Positions 8,482 through 18,982 of a stretch of DNA of 18,982 bases are shown piece after piece. The notes under the pieces are model-generated. The model did not search any database. It had not been told where the DNA came from and was given only the letters and a program-made list of their open reading frames with translations. The position numbers and the translations under genes are program-made. This DNA is from Ruminococcus sp. UBA1409 (GTDB lineage Bacteria; Bacillota; Clostridia; Oscillospirales; Ruminococcaceae): assembly GCA_002305045.1 (NCBI GenBank), contig DBPX01000001.1, positions 26,424 through 45,405 of the forward strand, read 5' to 3'. The first letter of the stretch is position 1, and the number at the start of each line of letters is the position of its first letter.

Positions 8482-8557
<76 letters not shown>

Positions 8558-8563
8558 AACTTT

Positions 8564-8610
8564 AATACCCGAAAAACCTTGATAAATAAAGGCTTTTCGG
8601 GTATTTTGTT
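8564..8610 (+). terminator. strong terminator after tRNA-fMet
   Basis: Bases 8564-8580 and 8589-8605 form a 17-bp stem with a single mismatch (AATACCCG/CGGGTATT outside) and an 8-base loop, ending in T-rich sequence. It works for transcripts from either direction. Confidence 0.85.
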
Positions 8611-8650
8611 ATTTTCGTATCTTGCGTGTTTACAGCCGCTAAAAACCGCT

Positions 8651-8672
8651 TTTGGGGTGAATTTGGGGTGAA
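8651..8672 (+). repeat. tandem 11-bp direct repeat near the attachment site
   Basis: TTTGGGGTGAA occurs twice in direct tandem (8651-8661 and 8662-8672), about 95 bp from the tRNA. Position and form suit an integrase arm-type binding site, but this is inference. Confidence 0.6.
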
Positions 8673-8698
8673 TGACTTATTTTTTTGAAAGCGCCCCT

Positions 8699-8727
8699 TT
8701 GGTTAAATTACAGTTTTATGGTATAAT
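8699..8727 (+). promoter_or_regulatory. candidate promoter for the DUF6431-like gene and its leader
   Basis: TTGGTT (8699-8704) is 17 bases from TATAAT (8722-8727). Transcription would start near 8734, just before two tandem hairpins. Confidence 0.55.
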
Positions 8728-8733
8728 AAAATA

Positions 8734-8808
8734 AAATTTTGCTGTGCACCTATCCAGCGGAGGTGTAGCACAGTATAAAGCCCTCTCGCTCAAAACGGGA
8801 GGGCTTTT
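8734..8808 (+). promoter_or_regulatory. two-hairpin leader RNA that masks the ribosome binding site
   Basis: Hairpin 1: CTGTGC (8742-8747) with GCACAG (8768-8773), plus ACCT (8748-8751) with AGGT (8761-8764) and a 3-base bulge. Hairpin 2: AAAGCCCTC (8777-8785) with GAGGGCTTT (8799-8807), extended by a T-G and a C-G pair, followed by T. Hairpin 2 looks like a rho-independent terminator, yet its right arm contains the GGGAGGG ribosome binding site of the gene starting at 8809. It can thus act as terminator and as translational lock, or be the end of a small RNA. I recognise no known riboswitch. Confidence 0.55.
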
Positions 8809-9141
8809 ATGATTTTTACGGATAAATACACCCTGGAATACGATCCACGCAAGGATGCACACCGTGTACATAGCACAGAGGCTCCGCTGTGCCCCTCCTG
8901 TGGCTTTTTAATGTCTGGGTACGATAACCGCAGGCGTAAGGCTATTGACAGCACAGGCGCTGTGTATTGGCTCCTGGTGCGGCGTTTATATTGCCCCAAG
9001 TGCAAAACCCACCACACCGAGCTCCCACGGTCCTTGGTGCCATTTAAGCAATATGAGGCGGCGGTAATCGAGGGTGCAGGCTCCCCACAAAGCAGCTGCC
9101 CGGCAGAGGGATCCACCATACGCCGGTGGAAAAGAAAATAA
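8809..9141 (+). CDS. zinc-ribbon protein, DUF6431-like
   Basis: A 110-aa protein of unknown function. It has two separated zinc knuckles, C28PSC31G and C62PKC65, with a following HH pair (68-69) and the phrase ELPRSLVPFKQYE, which resembles DUF6431 proteins found near mobile elements. It ends STIRRWKRK, a helix-turn-helix-like phrase; the frame after the stop continues open for about 15 codons, so the C-terminus may be shortened, but I cannot confirm this. GGGAGGG lies 5 bases before the ATG inside a terminator-like hairpin. It is the first element gene beside the tRNA. Confidence 0.7.
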   Translation: MIFTDKYTLEYDPRKDAHRVHSTEAPLCPSCGFLMSGYDNRRRKAIDSTGAVYWLLVRRLYCPKCKTHHTELPRSLVPFKQYEAAVIEGAGSPQSSCPAEGSTIRRWKRK

Positions 9142-9142
9142 T

Positions 9143-9180
9143 ACCCACCTACTTTGCCTGTGCGCGGCAGGCTCGTGGGT
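9143..9180 (+). terminator. hairpin after the DUF6431-like gene
   Basis: ACCCAC (9143-9148) pairs with GTGGGT (9175-9180) and GCCTG (9156-9160) with CAGGC (9168-9172). No T-run follows, so it may be a weak terminator or mRNA end structure. Confidence 0.3.
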
Positions 9181-9218
9181 GTACAATAATTGTGTGCAAG
9201 TATAAGGAGGTGGTGTGC

Positions 9219-9407
9219 TTGAAAATGCGATATAAGGCCCTTGTGGGCGTTCTTATACTCATTATCGTTGCTTTGCTTATGGTGATACTCTTACAGCAAT
9301 GTGGCAATAACGGCACGCCTACGGGGCCAGGAGGCGGCTTATACGAGGATCCCAATGCAGAGGATATACGGGAGCCAGATGCACAAAAGGCAGCATCGGC
9401 AATATAG
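9219..9407 (+). CDS. membrane-anchor half of a frameshifted extracellular protein
   Basis: A 62-aa product with one N-terminal membrane helix (about 8-27, rich in L, I, V) followed by an outward-facing low-complexity stretch (GPGGGLYEDPNAEDIREPD). The cysteine after LLQQ does not fit a lipobox. I chose TTG 9219, 8 bases after AAGGAGG (9204-9210); ATG 9225 is the alternative. The frame stops at 9407, but the -1 frame continues without a break into the next entry, giving GNIAVPGFEVM upstream of its first ATG. One missing A in the AAAA run at about 9379-9382 would account for it: with five A the frame is continuous. So this is the 5' half of a disrupted gene, or a site of slippage or sequencing error. 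Confidence 0.6.
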   Translation: MKMRYKALVGVLILIIVALLMVILLQQCGNNGTPTGPGGGLYEDPNAEDIREPDAQKAASAI

Positions 9408-9427
9408 CGGTACCGGGCTTTGAGGTT

Positions 9428-9706
9428 ATGACCATAAAGGCTGATCAAACCAAGCAAAATATATGGCTCTATAACCCAGAGAAAAATAACTGTTATTTCC
9501 TTGTAACCATTATGCTGCCGGATGGTACTGAGGTGTACAAGTCTGCCCTTATCGCTCCTGGTAAAGCGATATACACCGCAGAATTTACACGGACCGTGCC
9601 CGCAGGTACATACGAAAACGCTATTTTGCAATACGATTTTTACACCCTGGATGGTACCCAGGCCAATGGTACCAAAGCCTATTTTACGCTGGAGGTAGAA
9701 AAATGA
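9428..9706 (+). CDS. extracellular-domain half of the frameshifted protein
   Basis: 92 residues from ATG 9428, without a convincing ribosome binding site (GAGG only 2 bases away), a signal peptide or membrane helix. The content looks like a beta-sandwich: IWLYNPEKNNCYFLVTIMLPDGTEVYKS, then APGKAIY and VPAGTYENAILQYDFYTLDG. Small anchored proteins of this type, ending in similar YKS...PG...GTY phrases, are familiar from Firmicute mobile elements beside secreted proteins, though their function is unknown to me. The frame is open upstream across the stop of the preceding ORF, so both halves were most likely one protein of about 160 aa. Its stop TGA overlaps the ATG of the next gene (ATGA), which indicates translational coupling. 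Confidence 0.6.
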   Translation: MTIKADQTKQNIWLYNPEKNNCYFLVTIMLPDGTEVYKSALIAPGKAIYTAEFTRTVPAGTYENAILQYDFYTLDGTQANGTKAYFTLEVEK

Positions 9707-10236
9707 AAAAGATCATAGCCCTTTTGCTTACCCTTACAATGATCCTCGGCTTATCGGTACCGGCCTTTGCAGCCGCCAATGAAACAAGCGGCAGTATGGC
9801 CGTTACCTACAACATCGAAAGTTCATATCTCGTGAATTTGCCGGATATTACCCTAACTGGTGAGAGCACCACGGTTGAAATAACAGCTGATTATGTGCAT
9901 ATTTCTCCCACCCGCTTTTTAACTGTGTATATTGATGTGGAGCGCACACTTACTGATGGAGCGTTTTACCTTTTCAAAGACGGTGGCACAGATGTAAGCA
10001 CGGCCATTGAATGTAGCATATATGTTGATACGGTCAGTAATTCCGCAAATGCAGATTTTTATACCCCGTATTATGTTACGGCAACCTCGGACAACAGGCT
10101 TGTGCGTTTTAAGTCGGAGGACACAGTACCAGAGGCCTATGGTAAGCTAACTTTTACCCCTAATGTTACAATCAACAATACATACGGCACATACACGGGC
10201 AATATTTATTACACCATACGGGTTGCAGCAGGTTAA
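9703..10236 (+). CDS. secreted beta-rich surface protein
   Basis: A 177-aa protein with a clear Sec signal peptide: MKK, a hydrophobic core to about residue 18, then VPAFAA with likely cleavage near Ala23-Ala24. The mature part is rich in T, Y, V and N and ends in phrases such as YGTYTGNIYYTIRV, reminiscent of C-terminal strands in WxL-like and fimbria-like secreted proteins. No LPXTG motif or second membrane helix is seen, so retention at the surface, if any, may depend on the anchored protein encoded just upstream. The ATG overlaps the upstream stop. A strong terminator follows. Probably element cargo affecting the host surface; that is inference. Confidence 0.75.
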   Translation: MKKIIALLLTLTMILGLSVPAFAAANETSGSMAVTYNIESSYLVNLPDITLTGESTTVEITADYVHISPTRFLTVYIDVERTLTDGAFYLFKDGGTDVSTAIECSIYVDTVSNSANADFYTPYYVTATSDNRLVRFKSEDTVPEAYGKLTFTPNVTINNTYGTYTGNIYYTIRVAAG

Positions 10237-10238
10237 AG

Positions 10239-10276
10239 CAAAAGGCAGGCGGGCTCATAACCCACCTGCCTTTTTA
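10239..10276 (+). terminator. bidirectional terminator between convergent genes
   Basis: AAAGGCAGG and GGG (from 10241) pair with CCC and CCTGCCTTT (10261-10273) around a 7-base loop, followed by a T-run; on the other strand TTTTGCTTTAA follows the stem. It separates the genes ending at 10236 and 10280. Confidence 0.88.
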
Positions 10277-10279
10277 CTG

Positions 10280-10468
10280 TCAATCAATAAAGGTTTTGCG
10301 GGAGGCATCCCACACCCCAAAATATTGATCGTCATAATACACCTTGAATAGATCAACCATTACCCGGTGCACGCCAACATTATGCCCATACACACCATAA
10401 CCGAGCTTTATAAGTGCATCCTTTACCTCCTTTGTGGCCTCTGCTATGCTGATCTTTTTCTGCCTCAT
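10280..10468 (-). CDS. small conserved-looking protein of unknown function
   Basis: 62 residues from ATG 10468 (MRQKKISIAEATKEV...). It ends VDLFKVYYDDQYFGVWDASRKTFID, a compact beta-rich phrase that looks like a short protein family in Firmicute phages and elements. The frame is open further upstream, but that part is antisense-like shadow of the preceding gene. A weak GGAAAAAG precedes the start. It overlaps the upstream gene by 89 bases in another frame, an unusually long overlap for two real genes, so either this start or the upstream end may be wrong. Confidence 0.5.
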   Translation of the reverse strand: MRQKKISIAEATKEVKDALIKLGYGVYGHNVGVHRVMVDLFKVYYDDQYFGVWDASRKTFID

Positions 10469-10901
10469 TCTTTTTCCAAGATGCCGCCAGGCATAAGGCA
10501 TCGTGCTTGAGCCCCGTATCTTTTGCAAGGCGGTTAAGATCGTTAAGCAGAGCCGCCGCAAGGCTTGTGTTGCCGTTATGGATCTCCTCAAGGTTTTCAT
10601 ACAGAGCCTCTGCGATAGCGATACAACAAGCAAGCTGCCCCCGCACATCATCCAGGGTGGTACTTGCCTCGGCCCATACATCGCCCATATCAACTGGATC
10701 CTTAAATCTCACACCGGCAGCAAAAGCGTGTTTGTGCACCTCGTTGGTGTACTCTACAAGGGCCTCATCCTCTTTGTCGCCATCACGCCAGCCGAGGCGT
10801 TCACGGAAAGCCTCACGGACCGCATCAACGGCATTACAACCAAGCTCCTCCTCAAAACCGTCGTATCCAAGCATTTTGTCAAAAGTTTCCTCAATTTTCA
10901 T
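10380..10901 (-). CDS. hypothetical alpha-helical protein of the regulatory region
   Basis: 173 aa from ATG 10901, which follows AGGAGG by 9 bases; the longer frame to 10997 would begin upstream of the promoter. The protein is acidic and helical over most of its length (for example EEIHNGNTSLAAALLNDLNRLAKDTG, residues 105-130). The last 30 residues are lysine, glycine and histidine rich, unlike the rest, and lie where the next gene overlaps, so a frameshift near codon 140 is possible. It is transcribed divergently from the XRE repressor gene and may therefore be an early or lysogeny-control gene. I recognise no family. Confidence 0.65.
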   Translation of the reverse strand: MKIEETFDKMLGYDGFEEELGCNAVDAVREAFRERLGWRDGDKEDEALVEYTNEVHKHAFAAGVRFKDPVDMGDVWAEASTTLDDVRGQLACCIAIAEALYENLEEIHNGNTSLAAALLNDLNRLAKDTGLKHDALCLAASWKKNEAEKDQHSRGHKGGKGCTYKARLWCVWA

Positions 10902-10946
10902 AGCAAACAGCCTCCTAAAAAGTTTATTTTGTTTTGCTTTGATAAC

Positions 10947-10975
10947 ATTGTACACTAATTCGTTTCGTTTGTCAA
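10947..10975 (-). promoter_or_regulatory. consensus promoter for the minus-strand gene at 10901
   Basis: On the minus strand TTGACA (10975-10970), 17 bases, TACAAT (10952-10947). The -10 region shares a long similar stretch with the divergent promoter at 11016-11044. Confidence 0.8.
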
Positions 10976-11015
10976 TAGGTTTTGCAAACTTTTTCATTTA
11001 TTTTTCCAAGAATAA

Positions 11016-11044
11016 TTGACAGAGTACATTTTTTAGTGTATAAT
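11016..11044 (+). promoter_or_regulatory. consensus promoter for the XRE repressor operon
   Basis: TTGACA (11016-11021), 17 bases, TATAAT (11039-11044), 36 bp before the start at 11080. Similar sequence at 11033-11056 and, on the other strand, 10958-10938 suggests a shared operator covering both -10 boxes. Confidence 0.85.
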
Positions 11045-11079
11045 GATAGTATCAAAAAGCATATACAGGAGGGCTAAAA

Positions 11080-11298
11080 ATGCCACTTACAATGGGTGAA
11101 AAGGTTAAGATCATACTTAGCCGTAGAAATATGACGATGTCGCAGCTTGCTGAAATTCTCGGCCAATCCAGGCAAAACATATCTAATAAAATGAGCCGGG
11201 ATAATTTCACGGAAAAGGAGCTTGCAGAGATCGCCAAGGCACTTAACTGCACATACACCGCTACCTTTACTATGAATGATACGGGTGAGATTGTATAA
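11080..11298 (+). CDS. XRE/Cro-family transcriptional regulator
   Basis: A 72-aa, single-domain DNA-binding protein. Helix-turn-helix residues run from about 18 to 40 (MSQLAEILGQSRQNISNKM), followed by ELAEIAKALN and a short tail TATFTMNDTGEIV, a pattern familiar in small regulators of Firmicute mobile elements. AGGAGGG lies 6 bases before the ATG. It is divergent from the 10901 gene across two consensus promoters, the layout of a phage or satellite genetic switch. Target operators are likely the similar sequences over both promoters. Its stop overlaps the next start (TAATG). Confidence 0.88.
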   Translation: MPLTMGEKVKIILSRRNMTMSQLAEILGQSRQNISNKMSRDNFTEKELAEIAKALNCTYTATFTMNDTGEIV

Positions 11299-11675
11299 TG
11301 ACCACCTTGCAAAAGGAAATGCTTAACGCCGTGGGGCACAATGTGGAGGTACATACCAAAGGTACCGGCAAACCCGTTTGCGGCGTGTGCACCAATTATA
11401 CGCAGCCTGCGGATAACGATCCGGAGGTTGCCGCCATTGATGTTAAAGTGGAGGGCTACGAGGGCATTATAGAAATTACCGAGGCTGATATTGTGAACCT
11501 GCGTGTAACGGTCCTGTGCCCCGTTGTAGGCTCCCAGGTCGACGGATCCACCTGTTGCACCATTTGTGCCGTTGCAGACCGTGAGGCAAAGCCTGTGGTG
11601 CTACCGGAGGGCGTAAAGTGGGATGCAGAGCTGCAAGCAAAGTGTTTGGCGTGTAAATATCATACAGAGAATTAA
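11298..11675 (+). CDS. cysteine-rich protein of unknown function, cotranscribed with the repressor
   Basis: A 125-aa protein with eight cysteines: C28xxC31, C74, C86-C87xxC90 and C116xxC119, enough for two zinc sites or a redox-sensitive fold. The middle (about 45-70) is beta-rich and acidic. The start overlaps the stop of the XRE gene (TAATG), so the two are translationally coupled and probably act together, for instance as repressor and modulator; this is inference. I recognise no family. A hairpin terminator follows directly. Confidence 0.7.
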   Translation: MTTLQKEMLNAVGHNVEVHTKGTGKPVCGVCTNYTQPADNDPEVAAIDVKVEGYEGIIEITEADIVNLRVTVLCPVVGSQVDGSTCCTICAVADREAKPVVLPEGVKWDAELQAKCLACKYHTEN

Positions 11676-11714
11676 GGGCACCGTGCCGATAAAGCACGAT
11701 GCCCTCATTTTTTA
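11675..11714 (+). terminator. terminator after the repressor operon
   Basis: AGGGCA (11675-11680) pairs with TGCCCT (11700-11705), and GTGC (11683-11686) with GCAC (11694-11697), followed by CA and a T-run (11708-11713). It lies between convergent transcription units. Confidence 0.8.
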
Positions 11715-11719
11715 TGCCG

Positions 11720-12067
11720 TTATAGTTTAAGCATTTTACGCGCGATGCCATCAATACGAAAACGCATAGCCTGCTTACGGCGTACCCATTCTGCATTGAT
11801 GAGATTTTCACATATTGCGTGCACCGGATCGCCATCTTGCGAATTTTTGAACAACTTTCTATAAATCGCCAAGGTTATAAAATTCATACGGCAAACCCTA
11901 ACGAGCCTGTTAAAAGCATCGTCAAAATTTTTTTGATCCGCATTAAGTACGATCTTAAATTCCTCGTTAATTTTCGCAATAGATTGTTTGGCGCCTAAAT
12001 GCTCAACTACCAGCTGTTTTGGTAACTTTTTATAACCCGTTGTCGTGCACCCCCTCCGCTGCGGTAC
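11720..12067 (-). CDS. ORF after the tape measure gene without a usual start codon
   Basis: 115 codons are open between stops at 12068-12070 and 11720-11722. The translation looks like a genuine helical protein (EHLGAKQSIAKINEEFKIV, later INAEWVRRKQAMRFRIDGIA). It overlaps the end of the tape measure gene by 38 bases in the +1 frame. No ATG, GTG or TTG occurs in the first 60 codons; the first is ATG 11887, behind a weak TTAGGG, which would give a 55-aa product (11720-11887). A GGAGGGGG sequence sits at the end of the tape measure gene where a start would be expected but only TGC, ACG and ACA follow in frame. Either a rare start, frameshift expression, or a lost start codon. Confidence 0.45.
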   Translation of the reverse strand, partial: VPQRRGCTTTGYKKLPKQLVVEHLGAKQSIAKINEEFKIVLNADQKNFDDAFNRLVRVCRMNFITLAIYRKLFKNSQDGDPVHAICENLINAEWVRRKQAMRFRIDGIARKMLKL

Positions 12068-14066
12068 TCAACGCATCAACAAAGCCCTCAACAATATAAG
12101 CCATCATACCGTCAAGATCGGTGTTTGCGGCTACATTGTTTGTAACGCCTCCAAGGTCAACCTTAACCTCTGCGGTAGTAAAGCGGTTAATAGCCTCTTG
12201 CTCTGCCATATCACGCAGGTATGCAAGTTCCTCCGTAGTTTTATTGGTGCTACCTGCAAGGCTTGATGTATCATCGGCAATAGCCTCCAAGCTACCACCA
12301 ATATTTGCATATTGCTCTGCTGTGGGGATGTCAATGCCCTTGGTTATGCTGTCCACACTGAACATGTTACCTATTGTGTTCTCAATACCCTCGCCGGCGT
12401 TATAGCCTGCATTCCAGGCATCGCCATAGTCAATGCGTTTAAGGCCCAGGCCCTCTGCCGAGAGGTTTAAGCTACCCATAATTGCTTGGTAATTCTCATT
12501 GGGTGCATACTCTGCAACAAGTGCATCCGCTTTGCCCTTTAAGCCATCACGCCATCCCTGGACTGTATCAGCCATATTGGAGCCAAAAACAAAGTCCATA
12601 GCGGAGGCAATTTTCTGCAATACAGCAAGTACATTATCGGCCATACCCTGGAATAGGTAAATAATCGAGCTTATCGGGTTGGTAAACACATTGCCTATAA
12701 AGTTTGCGATCTGTATAAACGGATTGATCAAATAGTTAATTACTGTGAGCACAACCTCCAGGCAATCATAGATCAAATTCCAGATAAATGCGCCGGCAGA
12801 GGCAAGTGCACCAACAATAATGCCCGTGGCAGAAATGCTGGAGTCCGTTACCTTGTTAATTATGCCAATGATGCCATAGAAAAGGCCTATAATAATTAGA
12901 ATAAGCCCGATGATCCAAGTAAGAGGGCAGGCCATTAGGGCCGAATTATAAGTAAACTGTGCTGCAGAGGCAGCAGCTGTACTGCCACGCAGCATACCGA
13001 GGCCGATTGATAAGAAATTTACAACGGCGTGGTATGCGGCGGTTGCAACAGAGGCGATCTTGGTCCAATGTGCGGCCACTTGGAATACCGCAAATGCGGC
13101 TCCGATACCCAAAACAATAGGGCCTATAATCGCCAAATTGTTTGCAAGCCAATTTATACCTTGTAGCAACGGGTTAAAGAATATGAGAGCCATATTCCCC
13201 GCCGTAGTCCATACCTGGCTCCAGGTCATTGGCATACTTTCAAATTTGGCGTTTGTTTCCTCTGCTGTGGCAAACATCGCATTTTTAACCACCTCGGCTG
13301 TAACAAGGCCATCTGCTGCCAGGGTTTTGATAGAGCCTTCTGCGGCACCCATATACTGCTCAATGGCTCGTGCAATTCCGGGAGCTCCATCAAGGATGGA
13401 ATTTAATTCCTCACCCCTCAAGGCGCCGGCGGCCATAGCCTGTGTAAGCTGCACCATCGCATTACTTTGCTCCTGTGCCGTTGCACCGCCAATAACAAAC
13501 TGCTTATTGATTAGCTCAGTAAAAGCAATAAGCTCATCATTGCTCTTAAACGCATTGCCTGCATTTAAGCCCATTTTAGCGACAGCAGATGCGGTATCAA
13601 GGTATGCGGATCGTGAACGATTAGCCGATGCTCTTATTTTCTTTTCCAATTCGGCCACGCTACCTCCATCCTCAACAAGCAAATTGAGGCGTGCGGTTGT
13701 TTGGGCCTGGGTATCGGATAACCCCGCCAGATTGCTTATGCCTTGCATACCTATGTACGCACCGGCCATACCTTTAATTTTTCCGAGCAAATTATCTGCC
13801 TTGGTTGCTCCATCATCAATGGTACGGTTAAAGCGTTCCTGCTGCCTTGCACATTGCTCATATTGGCGCTCAATATCATCAAGTGCAGCGTTTGCAAGAC
13901 CAATTTCACGCCTTACATCGGCACACCAGCTTGTATCAACACCTCTGTTGGCCGTTCTTTGTGCCCGTTCAAAATTTGTTACCATTAAGCTCATAGCCTT
14001 ATTGATGCGGCGTAGGGCGGGCGTCATACCATCGCTAACAGCAAGGTTTGATTTAATTGTTGCCAT
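12030..14066 (-). CDS. phage tail tape measure protein
   Basis: Tape measure proteins span the lumen of long phage tails and set their length; DNA passes after they leave. This 678-aa protein has an N-terminal coiled stretch (about 1-95), then the recognisable tape-measure domain (about 100-300, with AGALRGEELNSILDGAPGIARAIEQYMG near 212-240), followed by hydrophobic segments (about 290-475) and a Gly/Ala/Asn-rich tail. GGAGGAG lies 7 bases before ATG 14066, and the start overlaps the upstream gene by 14 bases. With about 0.15 nm per residue the protein would suit a tail near 100 nm. No tail tube, sheath or baseplate gene is in the window, so it may act with the tail parts of another phage. 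Confidence 0.9.
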   Translation of the reverse strand: MATIKSNLAVSDGMTPALRRINKAMSLMVTNFERAQRTANRGVDTSWCADVRREIGLANAALDDIERQYEQCARQQERFNRTIDDGATKADNLLGKIKGMAGAYIGMQGISNLAGLSDTQAQTTARLNLLVEDGGSVAELEKKIRASANRSRSAYLDTASAVAKMGLNAGNAFKSNDELIAFTELINKQFVIGGATAQEQSNAMVQLTQAMAAGALRGEELNSILDGAPGIARAIEQYMGAAEGSIKTLAADGLVTAEVVKNAMFATAEETNAKFESMPMTWSQVWTTAGNMALIFFNPLLQGINWLANNLAIIGPIVLGIGAAFAVFQVAAHWTKIASVATAAYHAVVNFLSIGLGMLRGSTAAASAAQFTYNSALMACPLTWIIGLILIIIGLFYGIIGIINKVTDSSISATGIIVGALASAGAFIWNLIYDCLEVVLTVINYLINPFIQIANFIGNVFTNPISSIIYLFQGMADNVLAVLQKIASAMDFVFGSNMADTVQGWRDGLKGKADALVAEYAPNENYQAIMGSLNLSAEGLGLKRIDYGDAWNAGYNAGEGIENTIGNMFSVDSITKGIDIPTAEQYANIGGSLEAIADDTSSLAGSTNKTTEELAYLRDMAEQEAINRFTTAEVKVDLGGVTNNVAANTDLDGMMAYIVEGFVDALSTAAEGVHDNGL

Positions 14067-14835
14067 ATATTACTCCTCCCACAACCTGCGGCTCAATATT
14101 CTTAATGCCCAGCTTTACGCCAAAATCAGCAACAAGGCTCTGTACAAAGGCATCATACACTGCGGCATTATTGATACCAACGGTAATATTAGGGTTGGCG
14201 CCGAGCTCTGCAAGGCGGGTTTTAATGTGGATGCTTTCAATGGGGGAGCCGGCAGATCTTGCACCAAAATATGCAAGCTCAAATACCTCTGCAAGGCGTT
14301 TTGCGGTTTCAACCTCCATAATTCCAGCCTTTGCTTTTGCTACTGCGGGGGCAACTTTATCCAAGCACTCCAGCAATTCTGCGTTACCGGGGAAAATCTC
14401 AAGACCAGCAAGCACATAAATAGGTGCCCACTTATCACCCAGCTCGGTATGTTCACGGACCGTAGCAAAGAAATTGCTATCACGCACGCTTGGGTGCAAT
14501 GTAGAGCCCTCGTGGTTTCGTATGATGCGGTCAATTTCGCTGGTATAGTCATACTCGGAGCCCATAGGGATTGCATCGTAGTAAGCTCTCTTGGCCTCTT
14601 TTTCGGCAGTTTCCAAAGCGATGCGGATCTCATTCTTTTTGGTATCAATGAGCGCATCATAGTTAAGCTGTACCTGCTTTGCGGCAGCAGACTTTTGTGC
14701 AGGATCCACCGGGTACCTTACGCCACCGAGGGTAGCGTACTGCCGGGCCAAAATATCCTGGATCTGTGTGTTTTTCCCTGTTTCCAGGGCAATGATCGTG
14801 TTGTGTGCATTAAGCACCTTTTCAAAAATAGACAT
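14053..14835 (-). CDS. hypothetical protein in the tail-like operon
   Basis: A 260-aa mainly helical protein without membrane segments or signal peptide. Residues 45-85 form a charged helix (KKNEIRIALETAEKEAKRAYYDA), and the C-terminal third is mixed (ANPNITVGINNAAVYDAFV, about 213-231). Position directly before the tape measure gene is where long-tailed phages place tail assembly chaperones, but those are normally two short overlapping frames with a slippery site, which I do not see; so that role is only possible. The start ATG 14835 overlaps the stop of the preceding gene (TAATG) behind AAAGG. Confidence 0.75.
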   Translation of the reverse strand: MSIFEKVLNAHNTIIALETGKNTQIQDILARQYATLGGVRYPVDPAQKSAAAKQVQLNYDALIDTKKNEIRIALETAEKEAKRAYYDAIPMGSEYDYTSEIDRIIRNHEGSTLHPSVRDSNFFATVREHTELGDKWAPIYVLAGLEIFPGNAELLECLDKVAPAVAKAKAGIMEVETAKRLAEVFELAYFGARSAGSPIESIHIKTRLAELGANPNITVGINNAAVYDAFVQSLVADFGVKLGIKNIEPQVVGGVIYGNN

Positions 14836-15065
14836 TAGTCTGCGCCTTTCAATTCTTTAATAATTTTGTTGACGGCTGTGTCAAACATTTCTTGTACTTC
14901 TTCCCGTGTAACAAAGGGCTTTATGTTCTCGGAAATGAGGCGTATTACGCCGTTTGTGCCCTCCGTTCTTACGGTCCTCTCAATTTCCGCATCCGTCTTA
15001 TCAGTTAATGCAGATGCGATATTTGCCAGAGAGGTATTAAGCTCGTTATAAGGGTTTGCTATCAT
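14835..15065 (-). CDS. small hypothetical protein upstream of the 260-aa gene
   Basis: A 76-aa helical, acidic protein starting MIANPYNEL and ending EMFDTAVNKIIKELKGAD. AAAGGA lies about 10 bases before ATG 15065, and the stop overlaps the next ATG, which indicates translational coupling. No family recognised; likely part of the same phage-like structural or assembly operon. Confidence 0.65.
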   Translation of the reverse strand: MIANPYNELNTSLANIASALTDKTDAEIERTVRTEGTNGVIRLISENIKPFVTREEVQEMFDTAVNKIIKELKGAD

Positions 15066-15069
15066 CTTT

Positions 15070-15171
15070 TTAGTTCCTTTCAGCTGTAATCATCTTTGCG
15101 TTTGCGAAATACCCACATACGCCCTCGCTATCACTAATAAATACACCTCCGGCGCTTACTAATCTCCGCAT
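15070..15171 (-). CDS. 33-residue ORF opening the tail-like operon
   Basis: ATG 15171 is preceded by GGAGGTGAT with an 8-base spacing, one of the best ribosome binding sites in the window. The product starts MRRLVSAGGVFISDSEG and ends ITAERN; it has no membrane helix. The stop at 15070-15072 is 4 bases before the next start at 15065, and the ribosome binding site of that gene lies inside its last codons. It may be a real microprotein or a leader peptide that couples translation to the structured leader upstream. Confidence 0.5.
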   Translation of the reverse strand: MRRLVSAGGVFISDSEGVCGYFANAKMITAERN

Positions 15172-15192
15172 TTTTATATCACCTCCAATGCA

Positions 15193-15240
15193 AAAAAATA
15201 AAGCACGCAAAAAGTCCCGTTAAGGATCCTTTTGCGTGCT
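15193..15240 (-). terminator. rho-independent terminator at the end of the leader RNA
   Basis: AGCACGCAAAA (15240-15230 on the minus strand) pairs perfectly with TTTTGCGTGCT (15212-15202), followed by TTTATTTTTTT. It stands between a consensus promoter and the tail-like operon, so it ends a short RNA or acts as an attenuator. Confidence 0.88.
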
Positions 15241-15347
15241 CCCGGTTTCGGTGTTTACCCCTGGAAAGAAAAACCACCACACCGTAGCTTACCCCCGGTT
15301 TAGCGTGGCGTAACCACAACCGGTGATGCTACTCGTTACTTACTCTA
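15202..15347 (-). ncRNA. structured small RNA or attenuator leader of the tail-like operon
   Basis: A consensus promoter (15382-15354) predicts an RNA beginning near 15347 and ending at the terminator, about 145 nt. Minus-strand pairings: CCGGTT (15323-15318) with AACCGG (15300-15295), enclosing GTGG/CCAC (15317-15314 with 15308-15305); ACACCG/CGGTGT as CGGTGT (15284-15279) with ACACCG (15254-15249). A second AACCGG at 15247-15242 could replace the first as partner of CCGGTT, so two exclusive folds exist. There is no ORF of note in it. Match to a known RNA family is not apparent to me. Confidence 0.6.
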
Positions 15348-15353
15348 TATAAG

Positions 15354-15382
15354 ATTATACCACATATTGTGTTTGTTGTCAA
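15354..15382 (-). promoter_or_regulatory. consensus promoter for the leader RNA and tail-like operon
   Basis: On the minus strand TTGACA (15382-15377), 17-base spacer, TATAAT (15359-15354), a perfect sigma-A match in the gap after the 63-aa gene. Confidence 0.85.
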
Positions 15383-15415
15383 TATGTTTATTAAATATTG
15401 TGGGTTGATTATAGT

Positions 15416-15607
15416 TTACTTTGGTTTAGCGTTGTAGCGTTTTGTGGGGTATAGATTAAGATAGGCGTGTAAATATTTTTTATTATTTTCCTCGGTTTCG
15501 TCTGCAAGGCTGATTTTGCCGAGAATGGGCCGGAGGTGCTCAATCGCCTCCAAAACCTCTTTGCGCCCCTCTGGGCTGTTTTCATATTTCAACGCACAGC
15601 GTATCAT
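15416..15607 (-). CDS. small hypothetical protein after the small terminase
   Basis: A 63-aa charged helical protein (LEAIEHLRPILGKISLADETEENNKKYLHAYL). ATG 15607 follows AGGAGGTG by 7 bases, so it is very likely translated. It lies 67 bp after terS in the position where a phage would have the large terminase gene. No family recognised. Confidence 0.7.
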   Translation of the reverse strand: MIRCALKYENSPEGRKEVLEAIEHLRPILGKISLADETEENNKKYLHAYLNLYPTKRYNAKPK

Positions 15608-15674
15608 TTGGCTGCACCTCCTGTGTGGTATTTATGTGGATCCGTGCATAATCGTGATAGCAAACTAACTATGC

Positions 15675-16232
15675 TTATCTTGGCGGCGGTAGGCGTGTTG
15701 GGCGCTTTTTCTCGTTTTCATCATCGCCCATATCGGCCAATTTAATAAGCTGCTCGGTGGTTAAACCAGCAAAAGGGTTTTCACAATCCTCAAGATCACT
15801 TGCACCGGATATAACAACAGGCACGGAGCCATCAATGCGTACTCTGGCTTTTTCACTAAATAAGCCGTAAGCTTTGCCCAAGTGTTCAGCTGCTTTCAAC
15901 CTGCCGCTTATGGAGGGGCCTTTGGGTATAATCCTTGCCTCGGTTTTACCGCCACCTACCCGCAGCACAACAAGGACCTCCTCTGTAATTTCACCACGCA
16001 TAACAGAAGTAAGAAACTCCATAACCTCCTGCACATCGCAGATGCGGCTCTCCTCGATAGTTTTTAGGCGCTCATCAATTTCGTTGCGTATCTCCGGTAT
16101 GTTAAGCAGCTCATACCCCGTGGATCGTGCGGTTTTAGGGCTGTACCCGGCACGGATCGCCGCCTGCGTGGCATTGAGATCCACCAGGTACTCAACAATA
16201 AAACGCTTGCGCCGTTCTGTCATAATTGCCAT
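15675..16232 (-). CDS. terS: phage terminase small subunit
   Basis: TerS binds the packaging site of phage DNA and delivers it to the large terminase. The 185-aa protein begins MTERRKRFIVEYLVDLN and has the family helix-turn-helix ATQAAIRAGYSPKTARSTGYELL (about residues 21-43) typical of the Terminase_2 family, a central helical oligomerisation region (about 50-130) and a basic, proline-rich end (KKRPTRLPPPR). AGAGGAG lies 7 bases before ATG 16232. The large terminase does not follow as it would in a phage; satellites such as SaPIs encode only TerS and use it to redirect the helper's packaging motor. This is the main reason to consider the element a satellite. Confidence 0.92.
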   Translation of the reverse strand: MAIMTERRKRFIVEYLVDLNATQAAIRAGYSPKTARSTGYELLNIPEIRNEIDERLKTIEESRICDVQEVMEFLTSVMRGEITEEVLVVLRVGGGKTEARIIPKGPSISGRLKAAEHLGKAYGLFSEKARVRIDGSVPVVISGASDLEDCENPFAGLTTEQLIKLADMGDDENEKKRPTRLPPPR

Positions 16233-16263
16233 AATATCACTCCTCTCGTGTAAAAATCGGCTA

Positions 16264-16283
16264 TCTCTATATATATATAGAGA
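16264..16283. repeat. 20-bp perfect AT-rich palindrome before terS
   Basis: A TCTC arm, twelve alternating T/A bases and a GAGA arm give perfect dyad symmetry, about 32 bp upstream of the terS start. It could be an operator, a cruciform or mRNA hairpin; no T-run follows on the minus strand. Confidence 0.6.
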
Positions 16284-16317
16284 AAAAATGTAGGGTTTTG
16301 TATGGTTTTTGGCTTAT

Positions 16318-16584
16318 TTACTCTGTGCCAGTAGCATTGGTGGCAGGAGCCTGCTGCGCAGCTTTCCGCTCTTGCTCTGCGACATCAAGTGATACCTTGC
16401 GTGCGGCAAGGGTAGCCATAGCATACTCCAAGTTAGTGTTAAGCTCATTGATTATGTGCACCTTGGCCTCGGTGTTTTCGCAGTATTCCTCAACGCATTG
16501 GATGGCCGTTTTCAGCTCATCGCAAATAAATTTTTGTTCATTATAGGATTGCTCTGCATCCTCAATATCGAAAGTATAAATCAC
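16318..16584 (-). CDS. small coiled-coil hypothetical protein
   Basis: An 88-aa acidic helical protein with heptad-like leucine, isoleucine and valine spacing over most of its length and a flexible A/Q/P/T end (QQAPATNATGTE). The start is GTG at 16584, overlapping the stop of the preceding gene (GTGA), with GAGG about 9 bases upstream. Coupling to the 86-aa gene suggests that the two act together. No family recognised. Confidence 0.65.
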   Translation of the reverse strand: MIYTFDIEDAEQSYNEQKFICDELKTAIQCVEEYCENTEAKVHIINELNTNLEYAMATLAARKVSLDVAEQERKAAQQAPATNATGTE

Positions 16585-16841
16585 TTTGCTTTACCTCGCT
16601 TTTCTTTGCTTTGTTCATTCTGGAGAGCCTGGTTATAGTTATAGGCTGCTACCACGGCGGCATCCTCTGCCTCCCGGATCTTGGCTTGCATTGCCGCATC
16701 GTTAAGCAGCCCCGCCTCCTCGGCTTTTTTCTTTATTAACTCCAAATACCCCTTTGCCATATTAAGGCGCCAACGGGTTGTGTATATTTCATCCGGAAAA
16801 GTATAACTTATTTTCACCATTGGTGGAACTTTTCTAAACAC
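16581..16841 (-). CDS. small hypothetical protein next to the iteron cluster
   Basis: 86 aa with a short beta-like N-terminus (VKISYTFPDEIYTT) followed by a long charged helix (LELIKKKAEEAGLLNDAAMQAKIREAEDAA) and a basic end (SKEKRGKAK). GTG 16841 is preceded by GGAGGG with a 9-base spacing; that site is part of an iteron copy, so repeat binding could also affect translation. ATG 16820 is the alternative start but has no ribosome binding site. Confidence 0.62.
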   Translation of the reverse strand: MFRKVPPMVKISYTFPDEIYTTRWRLNMAKGYLELIKKKAEEAGLLNDAAMQAKIREAEDAAVVAAYNYNQALQNEQSKEKRGKAK

Positions 16842-17003
16842 CGTTTTTCACCCTCCAATAGTGAAAAAAACTCCGATAACACAAGGCTTTTCACCATTGG
16901 AGGTAACCGCCCACAAGTGGGCTTTTTACTGTTCACTATTGGAGGGTGTCCTCTAATAGTGAAAAAGGCTTGATATATAAAGAAAAATCCCACTATTGGA
17001 GGG
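16815..17003. repeat. cluster of six iteron-like repeats, candidate replication origin
   Basis: The motif CACTATTGGAGGG and close variants occur at 16851-16863 (inverted), 16892-16903, 16934-16946, 16950-16961 (inverted) and 16991-17003, with a degenerate palindromic copy at 16815-16826. The fourth and fifth form a near-perfect inverted repeat of 14-base arms around GTGT (16932-16963). The flanks are AT rich, and a short hairpin GCCCAC/GTGGGC with T-run lies at 16909-16927. The cluster is directly downstream of the primase-helicase gene. Iterons beside a Rep/helicase gene mark origins in satellites and plasmids. It fills the 164-bp gap between 16841 and 17006. Confidence 0.7.
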
Positions 17004-17005
17004 TT

Positions 17006-18835
17006 TTAACACGGATGTAGGAAAACCCTCCAAGCAAAGCCCTTGCCTTGCCCTCGGCTGGTGCTTTCAATTTTAATTTTGCCAGCGGTTTTAAGCCGTT
17101 GCTTTGCCGTTTTTATAGCGTTGTTTTTTATTCCACACGCCGCAGCCGTATTATCCAGATCCTTCACCTCACAGCTACCGCCGTGCTCCTCCAGGTAACT
17201 GATGATAAAGTTTTCAGCCTCATCCGTTGCCGGGGTTTCTCTTGTAATCTTTGAGGCCTCAAGCACAAACTCACGATCCCGCTTATCCGTGTAATTTTGA
17301 AATGTAACGGTTTCATCCAAAATTTTGAAAAGCACCGTTTTACCTCGTGGACCATAGTTTGACTTTTCGTGAGATAGGTACCGCAGGCCATTTTCGTCTG
17401 CCTTGCCGGCGATCATAACGCTACGGGCAATATCCCATATATCCGAGCTGTCGGAGAGCCTGTTTCTGCCCCAAACACTTTGCATCTTGTTTGTGTGCAT
17501 AATAAGCAAAAATGTTGTGCCGTACTTTTCACCATAGATGTGCAGGCGTTTCATACATTCTCGCATTTCACTACGGCTTATCATATTTGCACCACCAACA
17601 AACGCCTGTATAGGATCGAAAATGCAAAGAGCCGGGCGGTGTGCAGCAATCAGCTTTTCGAGGTAATCGCTATTAAGGGTAACAGCGTGAAAACGATCAT
17701 CCGCACAATCAAGGGTTTTTATATTATCGAGGTTTGCACCGTTTTTACGCAGGCGCCTCCTCAATACATATTCGTAAGAGTCCTCGCTTGAAAAGAAAAG
17801 CACTTTTTCCGGAGCCTTATCCGGTGCATTTGCAAAAAGGTTGTTTTGCAGAAAACTTTTATGCCCCGTACTAACAGCGGCAGCTAACGCACACCAGGTG
17901 AATGATTTACCCGTGCCGCCATCACCGGCTATAATTGTTATTTCCCGGCGGGGTATGTAGCCATCAATAAGCCACTCCGGATCCTTTTCCTCGGCAGCAG
18001 ACAGCGTTACCAGGTCCGTACTGAGGTTGTCTGTATTAGGTTTACTTACAGCATTGTTATAAGGGCTTGTGCCGTTAGGGTATCGCCAGGCACTATTTAC
18101 TATCGTTTCAACCTCGCTTGCATCCAGCGGAGGCACACACTTTGTATCATTTTCAGCAATTACAGCGGCAAGGATAGCCTCACGGCTCAAGCCTTTTGCT
18201 ACCATAGAGCTTGCTAACTTAAATAGTGCGCTGTTTCGTTCTCCCTCTCCGATAACATCCGGGCTTTTGAACGGATCCGCAGAGCTTTTGTCTGTGGGTG
18301 ATAGCAACGCCTTTACAACTGCATCGGTCTGTGCTACACCAAAAACAAGCGGGTGATTGATCCACTCATAGGGCGTACCATTTGGATGCACGCTCCCAGG
18401 GGCCACGATATAGCCGCCATTGGCACGAACATCAACACCGCTGCCATCCTTAAATAGATCCGCAGCATTGCGGTAAACGGTATCAACATCCCTATAAAAG
18501 ATATGTACACCGCCTCTGCCGGTCCTGGCCGTTGCTGTATTAAAGGGAATGTGTACCCCGTAATCGTTTTGCCATTTGTTCAGCCGTTCTATGCCATTTT
18601 TGCCTTTTTCATCGTCTATATCAAGATCCACAACAATTAAGCCGCCAGAGGGTAGCCCCGTGGCAATGCCGATATTGTAAAAGGGGTTTTCATCCCACCA
18701 CTTTTTAATTACAACTTTATTGGTTGTGGCGTGCTTGTTCCATTCTGCAATAGCAGGCCGTTTATCTTTTGGGCTTAAAGGAAAGACGGCAAAATGCAGG
18801 TCAGCATAGGAGAGGGCTATTTGTTTTAATCCCAT
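17006..18835 (-). CDS. bifunctional primase-polymerase with RecA-like helicase domain
   Basis: A 609-aa replication protein. Domains: N-terminal prim-pol (about 5-165) with catalytic VVDLDID (Asp70, Asp72), GGVHIFY (His111) and SGVDVRANGGYIVAPGS (Asp135); a PriCT-type helical linker (about 197-252); a RecA/RepA-like ATPase (about 285-480) with Walker A GDGGTGKS (304-311) and Walker B LCIFD (403-407); and a winged-helix-like end (about 535-600). It is expected to prime and unwind at the element's own origin, most likely the adjacent iteron cluster. The ATG at 18835 follows a run of nine G and TAAAAGCAA. Such proteins are typical of satellites, plasmids and some phages. Confidence 0.92.
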   Translation of the reverse strand: MGLKQIALSYADLHFAVFPLSPKDKRPAIAEWNKHATTNKVVIKKWWDENPFYNIGIATGLPSGGLIVVDLDIDDEKGKNGIERLNKWQNDYGVHIPFNTATARTGRGGVHIFYRDVDTVYRNAADLFKDGSGVDVRANGGYIVAPGSVHPNGTPYEWINHPLVFGVAQTDAVVKALLSPTDKSSADPFKSPDVIGEGERNSALFKLASSMVAKGLSREAILAAVIAENDTKCVPPLDASEVETIVNSAWRYPNGTSPYNNAVSKPNTDNLSTDLVTLSAAEEKDPEWLIDGYIPRREITIIAGDGGTGKSFTWCALAAAVSTGHKSFLQNNLFANAPDKAPEKVLFFSSEDSYEYVLRRRLRKNGANLDNIKTLDCADDRFHAVTLNSDYLEKLIAAHRPALCIFDPIQAFVGGANMISRSEMRECMKRLHIYGEKYGTTFLLIMHTNKMQSVWGRNRLSDSSDIWDIARSVMIAGKADENGLRYLSHEKSNYGPRGKTVLFKILDETVTFQNYTDKRDREFVLEASKITRETPATDEAENFIISYLEEHGGSCEVKDLDNTAAACGIKNNAIKTAKQRLKTAGKIKIESTSRGQGKGFAWRVFLHPC

Positions 18836-18859
18836 TTGCTTTTACCCCCCCCCGCTAAT

Positions 18860-18982
18860 TTATATGTTAATTTGTCTAATAGCGGGAGCAGATGTAAGGG
18901 GGCCGTTATCGGAACCATCCGAGCACATAAGCCAACGCTCCACATTATCCCAGGCAATCAAGTATTTTTTGCCCACAATGCG
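18860..18982 (-). CDS. C-terminal 40 residues of an excisionase-like HTH protein (cut by right edge)
   Basis: The minus frame is open from the window edge to a stop at 18860-18862. It begins RIVGKKYLIAWDNVERWLM, which resembles the end of a MerR-like or excisionase-family helix-turn-helix (R-x-G-K-x-Y-L-I-x-x-x-x-x-E-x-W-L), followed by a short polar tail. The N-terminal half is outside. In satellites and prophages such a small DNA-binding protein often precedes the replication gene, which starts 24 bp further on. Confidence 0.6.
   Translation of the reverse strand, partial: RIVGKKYLIAWDNVERWLMCSDGSDNGPLTSAPAIRQINI

Follow-up and report, generated by a model that had tools for sequence, protein, structure and literature searches.

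We examined what kind of element occupies the right half of an 18,982-nt stretch of Ruminococcus sp. UBA1409 DNA ("the window"; contig DBPX01000001.1, positions 26,424 to 45,405; G000:C13:26424-45405 in our numbering), where genes for a small terminase (TerS) and a tape measure protein (TMP) lie beyond a tRNA-Met gene, and why an element of this size should carry a TMP. The contig stops exactly at the right end of the window (18982). The element is probably an integrated satellite like the phage-inducible chromosomal islands (PICIs), whose TerS would redirect the packaging of a helper phage and whose own TMP would enter the helper's contractile tails. Judged by its genes, the window holds most of a small phage parasite that has its own packaging selector and tail ruler, and no head or tube gene.

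Read rightwards from the tRNA-Met, the element presents a plus-strand cargo block, an XRE gene and a gene for a small phage-type protein; the minus strand, read from the right, encodes a primase-polymerase (Prim-Pol)/helicase, followed by iterons, small open reading frames (ORFs), TerS, a leader, a 76-aa ORF, the protein p260 and the TMP (Table 1). The first-pass annotation had recognized TerS, the primase-polymerase/helicase with its iterons, the XRE switch and the TMP, and all of these were recovered, as Pfam or PHROG matches and as six iterons. It had also reported no large terminase (TerL), portal, protease, capsid, tail tube or lysis gene; none was matched among the scanned ORFs of the window or of the contig end that carries the other side of the element, nor was a sheath or baseplate gene, and the ORF list holds no further minus-strand frame of capsid, portal or TerL size within the element.

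Both ends of the element were found, and this was counted for the satellite reading. A search of the genus for the tRNA region showed that contig C1 of the same genome holds another, incomplete copy of the tRNA-Met, which shares 47/47 bases with the window (window 8513-8559; C1:37531-37577), and these copies are attL and attR. The start of the element had been placed at 8558; its left boundary lies instead inside the tRNA gene, at attL. The other end of the element is C1:37531-40014, where the search for a right attachment site, proposed with the satellite reading, met attR, an integrase and a regulator, and not TerL, portal or capsid genes, with one unsequenced gap between the contigs. The 2.4 kb from attR to the end of C1 encode a 461-aa tyrosine integrase (PF00589, 1e-28) and, adjoining it, a 238-aa helix-turn-helix (HTH) regulator, for which Pfam HTH matches were below cut-off and the PHROG match was phrog_8 (2e-7). 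Together the two parts give an element of at least 12,909 bp (about 13 kb) plus the gap between C13 and C1. C1 closes with a minus-strand ribosome site and ATG, and at its right end the window has the C-terminal part of a minus-strand gene; if these belong to one gene, the gap would be small.

The integrase (L300:17716-19101, minus strand of contig C1) has an inserted Cro/CI-type HTH domain (HTH_3, residues 149-199). The same tRNA is occupied in other members of the genus, by integrases about 50% identical in genomes G017 and G028 and by an integrase in two pieces in G022. Loci L303 and L304 (G028 and G017, respectively) are islands of about 6 and 8 kb that lie between repeats of tRNA-Met and carry related integrases and XRE genes; in this genus the tRNA-Met gene is thus an integration hotspot. 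At L302 (G022:C26) the integrase pieces are accompanied by a replication gene, a terS2-type HTH gene, a small HTH-like protein that is perhaps an excisionase, and a coiled-coil-like ORF truncated at the end of the contig; this is probably another satellite.

The TMP of the window is 71% identical over its whole length to that of the myophage contig L195. In a tree of 117 TMPs made by a quick method, with 34 of the rows unlabelled, 14 satellite rows were scattered among 69 contractile-phage rows, an arrangement that takes 9 changes, of which well-supported branches force at least 8. Exchange of TMP genes with contractile phages thus looks to have taken place repeatedly, which would be expected if a TMP must fit a changing helper tail. 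The ratio dN/dS was 0.11-0.32 in seven pairs (four satellite-phage, three satellite-satellite; dS exceeded 1 in three), and the satellite relatives' TMPs look functional and under purifying selection; the window-L195 pair was saturated. In eight satellite-phage pairs (one phage serves in three of them), the satellite TMP was 59-82% identical to that of the nearest phage, with conservation along the body, and differed from it in length by +10, +1, -6, -47, -23, -19, -19 and -4 aa. The first-pass annotation had suggested that a satellite TMP could retool helper tails; lengths within about 5% of those of the nearest phages do not support re-sizing, and differences of only +10 to -47 aa led us to reject it as the main function. 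Length-matched TMPs argue instead for selective assembly, escape from interference, or a role in DNA ejection.

The N-terminal fifth of the TMP was more diverged in satellite-phage pairs (-0.18, 71 pairs) than in phage-phage pairs (-0.07, 166 pairs) or satellite-satellite pairs (-0.07, 13 pairs), although these pairs are not independent. A single satellite-type N-terminus was considered and rejected: the N-terminal tree, with 17 satellite rows, needs 11 changes (at least 9 forced) and gives no one clade.

The chief competitor to incorporation is that the satellite TMP acts as a decoy, poisoning helper tail assembly as an anti-phage device and forming no part of the satellite's own particles. 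Interference with tail assembly is a known defence theme (PMC11364771 and PMC10884400, in the excerpts consulted), and the perfect sigma-70-like promoter before the TMP operon could give expression before induction. A poison, however, could be truncated, whereas these TMPs are full length, matched in length to phage TMPs and conserved through the body; a satellite that has no tube gene depends on helper tails for its own particles; and in the Vibrio cholerae phage-inducible chromosomal island-like elements (PLEs) the satellite TMP is incorporated and needed for transduction (PMC12987554, as excerpted). We consider the decoy improbable.

We then surveyed loci with related TMPs, drawn from 35 viral loci, the best 80 of 160 genome loci and the best 80 of 580 viral loci (five overlapping). 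The reference proteins used were TerL and portal from L105, and Mu F, sheath, tube, tail assembly chaperone (TAC), LysM, baseplate J and major head protein from L195; lists of co-occurring genes omit rows with a TMP only. Of 210 TMP loci, 151 matched a head, sheath or tube profile and 21 matched none, while in 38 the upstream sequence was too short. Fourteen distinct loci among the 21 had the satellite layout with no head, sheath or tube profile match; the remainder were not counted, being fragments or in phage-tail context (L114, L141, L215, L243, L247, L266) or, for L111, a second entry for the L124 contig. The protein p144 brought in five more (L032, L137, L177, L182, L204), of which L032 and L182, either short or ending at the TMP, were counted through p144 and not through layout. 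With the reservation that absence of head genes rests on profiles and ORF lists and not on full annotation of each locus, about 20 other loci look like related satellites, and those whose host has a name are mostly in Clostridia. Among the hosts are Intestinimonas butyriciproducens An565, Flavonifractor AGMB03687, Lutispora thermophila DSM 19022, Caloramator quimbayensis and Anaerotignum neopropionicum DSM 3847. Among the papers listed by literature searches on tape-measure satellites and on Clostridia satellites, none was seen to describe elements of this kind.

By profiles, the 19 satellite loci carry p144 (18 loci), a sigma-70 factor (13), a Mor-like late activator (13) and a D5 or Prim-Pol primase (11, some of the matches weak). 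TerS is of the window type in eight and of a second, TerS-like type in five (weak phrog_2538 matches), with a third type (phrog_606) in L204. The library scan gave integrases in L116, L132 (serine), L155 and L175, others being seen by eye; L146 and L175 have repeats of 18 and 15 bp, possible att sites, spanning about 13.7 and 13.9 kb. The gene order of the window had been proposed as something to seek elsewhere: TerS, a p260 homologue and the TMP occur in related order in Intestinimonas (L116) and in a Lachnospiraceae metagenome-assembled genome (L125), and p144-type relatives occur in more genomes. With such gene orders elsewhere and no structural genes found at the C1 end, the proposal of a phage satellite gained support. 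The spacing of TerS and TMP speaks for it as well: in the four same-family loci that have TerS and TMP relatives and head, sheath and tube genes on one contig by profiles (L105, L107, L108, L109), the two genes start 11.8-13.1 kb apart, as against 2.2 kb in the window.

These comparisons bear on a second alternative, that the element is a decayed contractile prophage which lost about 10 kb between TerS and the TMP and everything after the TMP. In its favour, phages of the host family have homologues of both TerS and TMP, and in the tree the TMP falls with that of L195. Yet the core reading frames of the element are intact, as are attL and attR; p260, which has its own database family and stands after TerS also in L116 and L125, sits where the lost genes would be; compact layouts like that of the window recur in other genomes; and the relatives' TMPs are under purifying selection, the window-L195 pair itself being uninformative through saturation. 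Intact promoters had also been held against decay; two perfect 12/12 sites, at 11016 (+) and 15382 (-), uphold this in part, although promoter-like matches overall were at chance (20 found, 18.7 expected). Decay of a prophage is in our judgement very unlikely.

The gene directly upstream of the TMP distinguishes these elements. The p144 gene was directly upstream of the TMP start in 19/19 p144 loci; it was present in 19 of 211 TMP loci (18 distinct) and in 0 of 146 loci with a sheath or tube gene. A search of 345 genomes of the order gave four hits, two of them in the genomes of L132 and L116 (an identity judged by matching sheath coordinates) and two new (L318 and L319), both with p144 directly before the TMP and an integrase present. 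As predicted, p144 thus marked a TMP in an element with an integrase in 2/2; the predicted freedom of such elements from capsid genes was borne out in 1/2. L319 has a TerS (phrog_2538, 3e-35) and a gp10-like gene. L318 encodes a major head protein (phrog_422, 7.5e-62) that escaped the capsid profile made from L195; it also encodes a scaffold (phrog_172, 2e-12) and therefore resembles a capsid-forming satellite, and no TerS was matched there by profiles. This element (L318:8196-12582, minus strand) combines integrase, primase, p144 and TMP with its own head genes, and transposase-like genes, seen by eye, lie just beyond the TMP.

Other relatives differ again. L177 (Firmicutes UBA6806) joins the p144 and TMP cassette to TerL, portal and Mu F, with no capsid, sheath or tube match, and is, by gene content, a packaging-module satellite. 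L137, with p144 and TMP, has a head scaffolding protein (L137:8896-9537; phrog_194, 6e-43) and no capsid match; the scaffold is possibly a capsid-size changer. A gp10-like tail-completion gene was found in L132 and L239 by library scan and in L204 by eye. Same-strand ORFs of at least 110 aa without a profile match were listed in 20 satellite loci, and the L318 capsid, searched against these lists, matched no other satellite; outside L318 it had matches in 10 other loci. By the profile matches, then, the virion genes of the relatives vary (capsid and scaffold, TerL and portal, in most none) and the TMP is constant. Whether a relative has no head genes, TerL and portal, or capsid and scaffold, it always has a TMP, which suggests that the TMP is what matters most.

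The p260 homologues of L116 and L125 stand directly after TerS, and that of L133 is at a locus without a TerS match. Twelve database proteins are related to p260; one of them (P0005) and a TMP homologue (P0025) are both listed on a 13,097-bp contig, which suggests that they are neighbours. P0003, P0005, P0006 and P0007 are on metagenome contigs of 9, 13, 102 and 29 kb. A search of 50,697 phage records for p260 found no match. In many other satellites a comparable position is taken by an ORF of 203-273 aa; nine were scanned and all nine, like those of L177 and L319, lack a PHROG match, and no homology to p260 was detected.

The weakest alternative, a larger element (a capsid-forming PICI (cf-PICI) or a phage) whose capsid and packaging genes fall in the gap between C13 and C1, draws on contigs that are not physically joined and on similar cassettes that hold TerL, portal and Mu F (L177) or capsid and scaffold (L318), but is less probable still, since the contig ends carry the start and the end of a minus-strand gene that could be one gene across a small gap, attR and the integrase lie no more than 2.4 kb from the end of C1, and the extra head genes of L177 and L318 stand between primase or TerS and the TMP, a stretch fully sequenced in the window.

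A satellite of this kind would need a contractile helper. The hosts had been proposed as a place to look for helper prophages. Sheath genes were present in 8/12 satellite-bearing genomes (that of the window excluded, and that of L182 outside the 12), as against 33/197 genomes of the window's order (Fisher p 3e-4; 2e-4 with three genomes judged shared removed from the background); this enrichment is suggestive only of contractile helpers, the groups differing in taxonomy and the sheath genes possibly belonging to tailocins. The genome of the window gave no sheath hit.

Several observations weigh against the satellite reading preferred here, or narrow it. In the genome that holds the window, 88.5% complete, neither a sheath gene (PF04984) nor a TerL of the single family searched (PF03354) was found, so that no resident helper was seen, and the step from C13 to C1 is bridged by inference. 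The window lacks p144, having p260 at the TMP start instead, and lacks the sigma gene of most relatives. The p260 of the window is only 20-30% identical to those of L116, L125 and L133, and no homologue was found in 98 other relative genomes or in the genome and viral contig scans; neither p260 nor p144 gave a convincing fold match. Nor do all the relatives lack head genes, as L318 attests, and L319 has a short Mu F-like fragment on the opposite strand.

We nevertheless regard a PICI-like satellite as the probable identity of the element, and its cycle could run as follows. When a contractile-tailed helper replicates in the same cell, the satellite would excise and replicate; its TerS would turn the large terminase of the helper towards satellite DNA; the satellite TMP, together with p260 here and with p144 in most relatives, would take the place of the helper's; and the tails, otherwise of helper parts, would give particles with chimeric tails of about normal length. 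A broader proposition, which we put forward tentatively and think rather doubtful, is that a widespread lineage of Bacillota satellites has the TMP as its constant virion contribution whatever its head genes, that the upstream p144 or p260 loads the satellite TMP selectively into helper contractile tails, and that the TMPs have been repeatedly re-acquired from contractile phages. If true, selective loading would be the selection step described as unknown for the PLEs. The repeated exchange of TMPs with contractile phages helps to predict helpers.

Table 1. Features of the element and its insertion site in the window (window coordinates).
Feature	Position	Strand	Basis
tRNA-Met, integration target	8482..8557	+	ARAGORN; Rfam RF00005
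attL, 47 bp	8513..8559	+	identical to attR at C1:37531-37577, same genome
Cargo: DUF6431 zinc-ribbon protein	8809..9141	+	PF20020 2.5e-23; 44% homologue beside TMP in Flavonifractor L132
Cargo: 92-aa protein	9428..9706	+	47% homologue in L132
Cargo protein, signal-peptide-like start by eye	9703..10236	+	ORF; 31% homologue in L132
205-aa ORF	10380..10997	-	ORF only; promoter match 11/12 at 10975-10947
XRE regulator	11080..11298	+	HTH_26 2.5e-8; 12/12 promoter at 11016-11044
125-aa phage-type protein	11298..11675	+	phrog_1865 9e-11
TMP, 678 aa, full length	12030..14066	-	PF20155 9e-41; phrog_1068 8e-172, best stretch residues 1-308
p260, 260 aa, overlaps TMP start	14053..14835	-	12 database homologues; profile homologues L116, L125, L133
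76-aa ORF of TMP operon	14835..15065	-	adjoins p260 start; no clear family
Structured leader before TMP operon	15196..15348	-	minimum free energy -58.7, z -4.3; 12/12 promoter at 15382-15354
TerS	15675..16232	-	Terminase_2 PF03592 4e-34; phrog_51 2e-40
Two small ORFs (88 and 86 aa), TerS to iterons	16318..16841	-	ORFs; no Pfam match
Iteron cluster, six copies of TTCACYATTGGWGG, both strands; probable replication origin	16813..17002		6 vs 0.41 expected, an expectation after the fact, the pattern having been read off repeats found beforehand
Primase-polymerase/helicase	17006..18835	-	Prim-Pol 4e-38; PriCT_1; AAA_25
3' end of contig-cut gene, C-terminal part	18860..18982	-	open ORF; excisionase-like possible, by eye

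Some further features of the window and its relatives were recorded. The leader before the TMP operon (window 15196-15390, minus strand) starts from a perfect TTGACA-17-TATAAT promoter with TG and ends in a terminator-like hairpin and T run; it matched no Rfam family at its threshold, and is possibly an attenuator or a satellite small RNA. The cargo block of a DUF6431 gene and small-protein genes is common to window 8809-10236 and Flavonifractor L132:12748-14211, on the TMP side in both. The sigma-70 family factor of 13/19 satellite loci (L116:8597-9640 and relatives) might let those satellites drive their own late transcription. Downstream of the TMP in 10 loci, including L116:12819-14543 and L183:8894-11077, both with an SLH match, lies a large protein with a secretion-signal-like start, which is a predicted conserved surface cargo.

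Among known systems, the Gram-positive PICIs and Staphylococcus aureus pathogenicity islands (SaPIs) are the nearest in layout. The element shares with them an integrase with paired att sites at a tRNA, an HTH (Stl-like) regulator beside the integrase, a primase-containing replication module with origin repeats, TerS without TerL (the gap between C13 and C1 remaining), a size of about 13 kb, and no capsid or tube gene; it differs in having a tape measure and p260 after TerS. To our knowledge, SaPIs lack a tmp gene. The cf-PICIs are unlike it, no capsid, portal or large terminase being present in its window part or at the C1 end, and it is the relative L318, with capsid, scaffold, p144 and TMP, that looks closer to them. 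Nor is it a complete prophage, for which head, tail tube, baseplate or lysis genes would be looked for in vain in the window or the C1 end: the contractile prophage IMGVR_UViG_3300010274_000007 (L195) has the homologous TMP (71%) together with head, sheath, tube, TAC and baseplate genes. Clostridioides phage phiC2 (56.5-kb record) has a homologous TMP as well (34%).

The likeness to the PLEs of V. cholerae is one of TMP logic only. In those elements, according to the excerpted text of PMC12987554, the satellite TMP and BhuB enter chimeric tails (TMP/TAC/BhuB), and deletion of tmp cuts transduction by 96-99.9%; the legend of Extended Data Fig. 10 in the same source has putative tmp genes drawn for cf-PICIs. 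The first-pass annotation had thought a satellite with a tail length determinant unusual, and these predicted cf-PICI genes and the PLEs' use of their own TMP (2026) overtake that view. Both systems have their own TMP beside a small upstream gene, and a few relatives here (L116, L124, L183) have after the TMP a DUF2577 gene, of baseplate type in phages; in one comparison p144 had no detectable homology to TAC. They differ in host (Bacillota here), in TerS (Terminase_2 family here), in TMP length (about that of the phage here, whereas the PLE11 TMP differs from that of ICP1 by 95 aa) and in TMP identity (59-82% to the nearest phage in the eight pairs here, 20% for PLE11), the PLE11 values being those of the same excerpts. 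What is new is thus the PICI-like, TerS-encoding Bacillota satellite with its own tape measure, a satellite TMP as such being already known from the PLEs. Use of its own TMP by a satellite is proven for the V. cholerae PLEs alone (2026); another such group in Bacillota, apparently unrelated and with cultured strains among its hosts, would make takeover of tail assembly a general satellite strategy, and why a satellite replaces the tape measure becomes a testable question.

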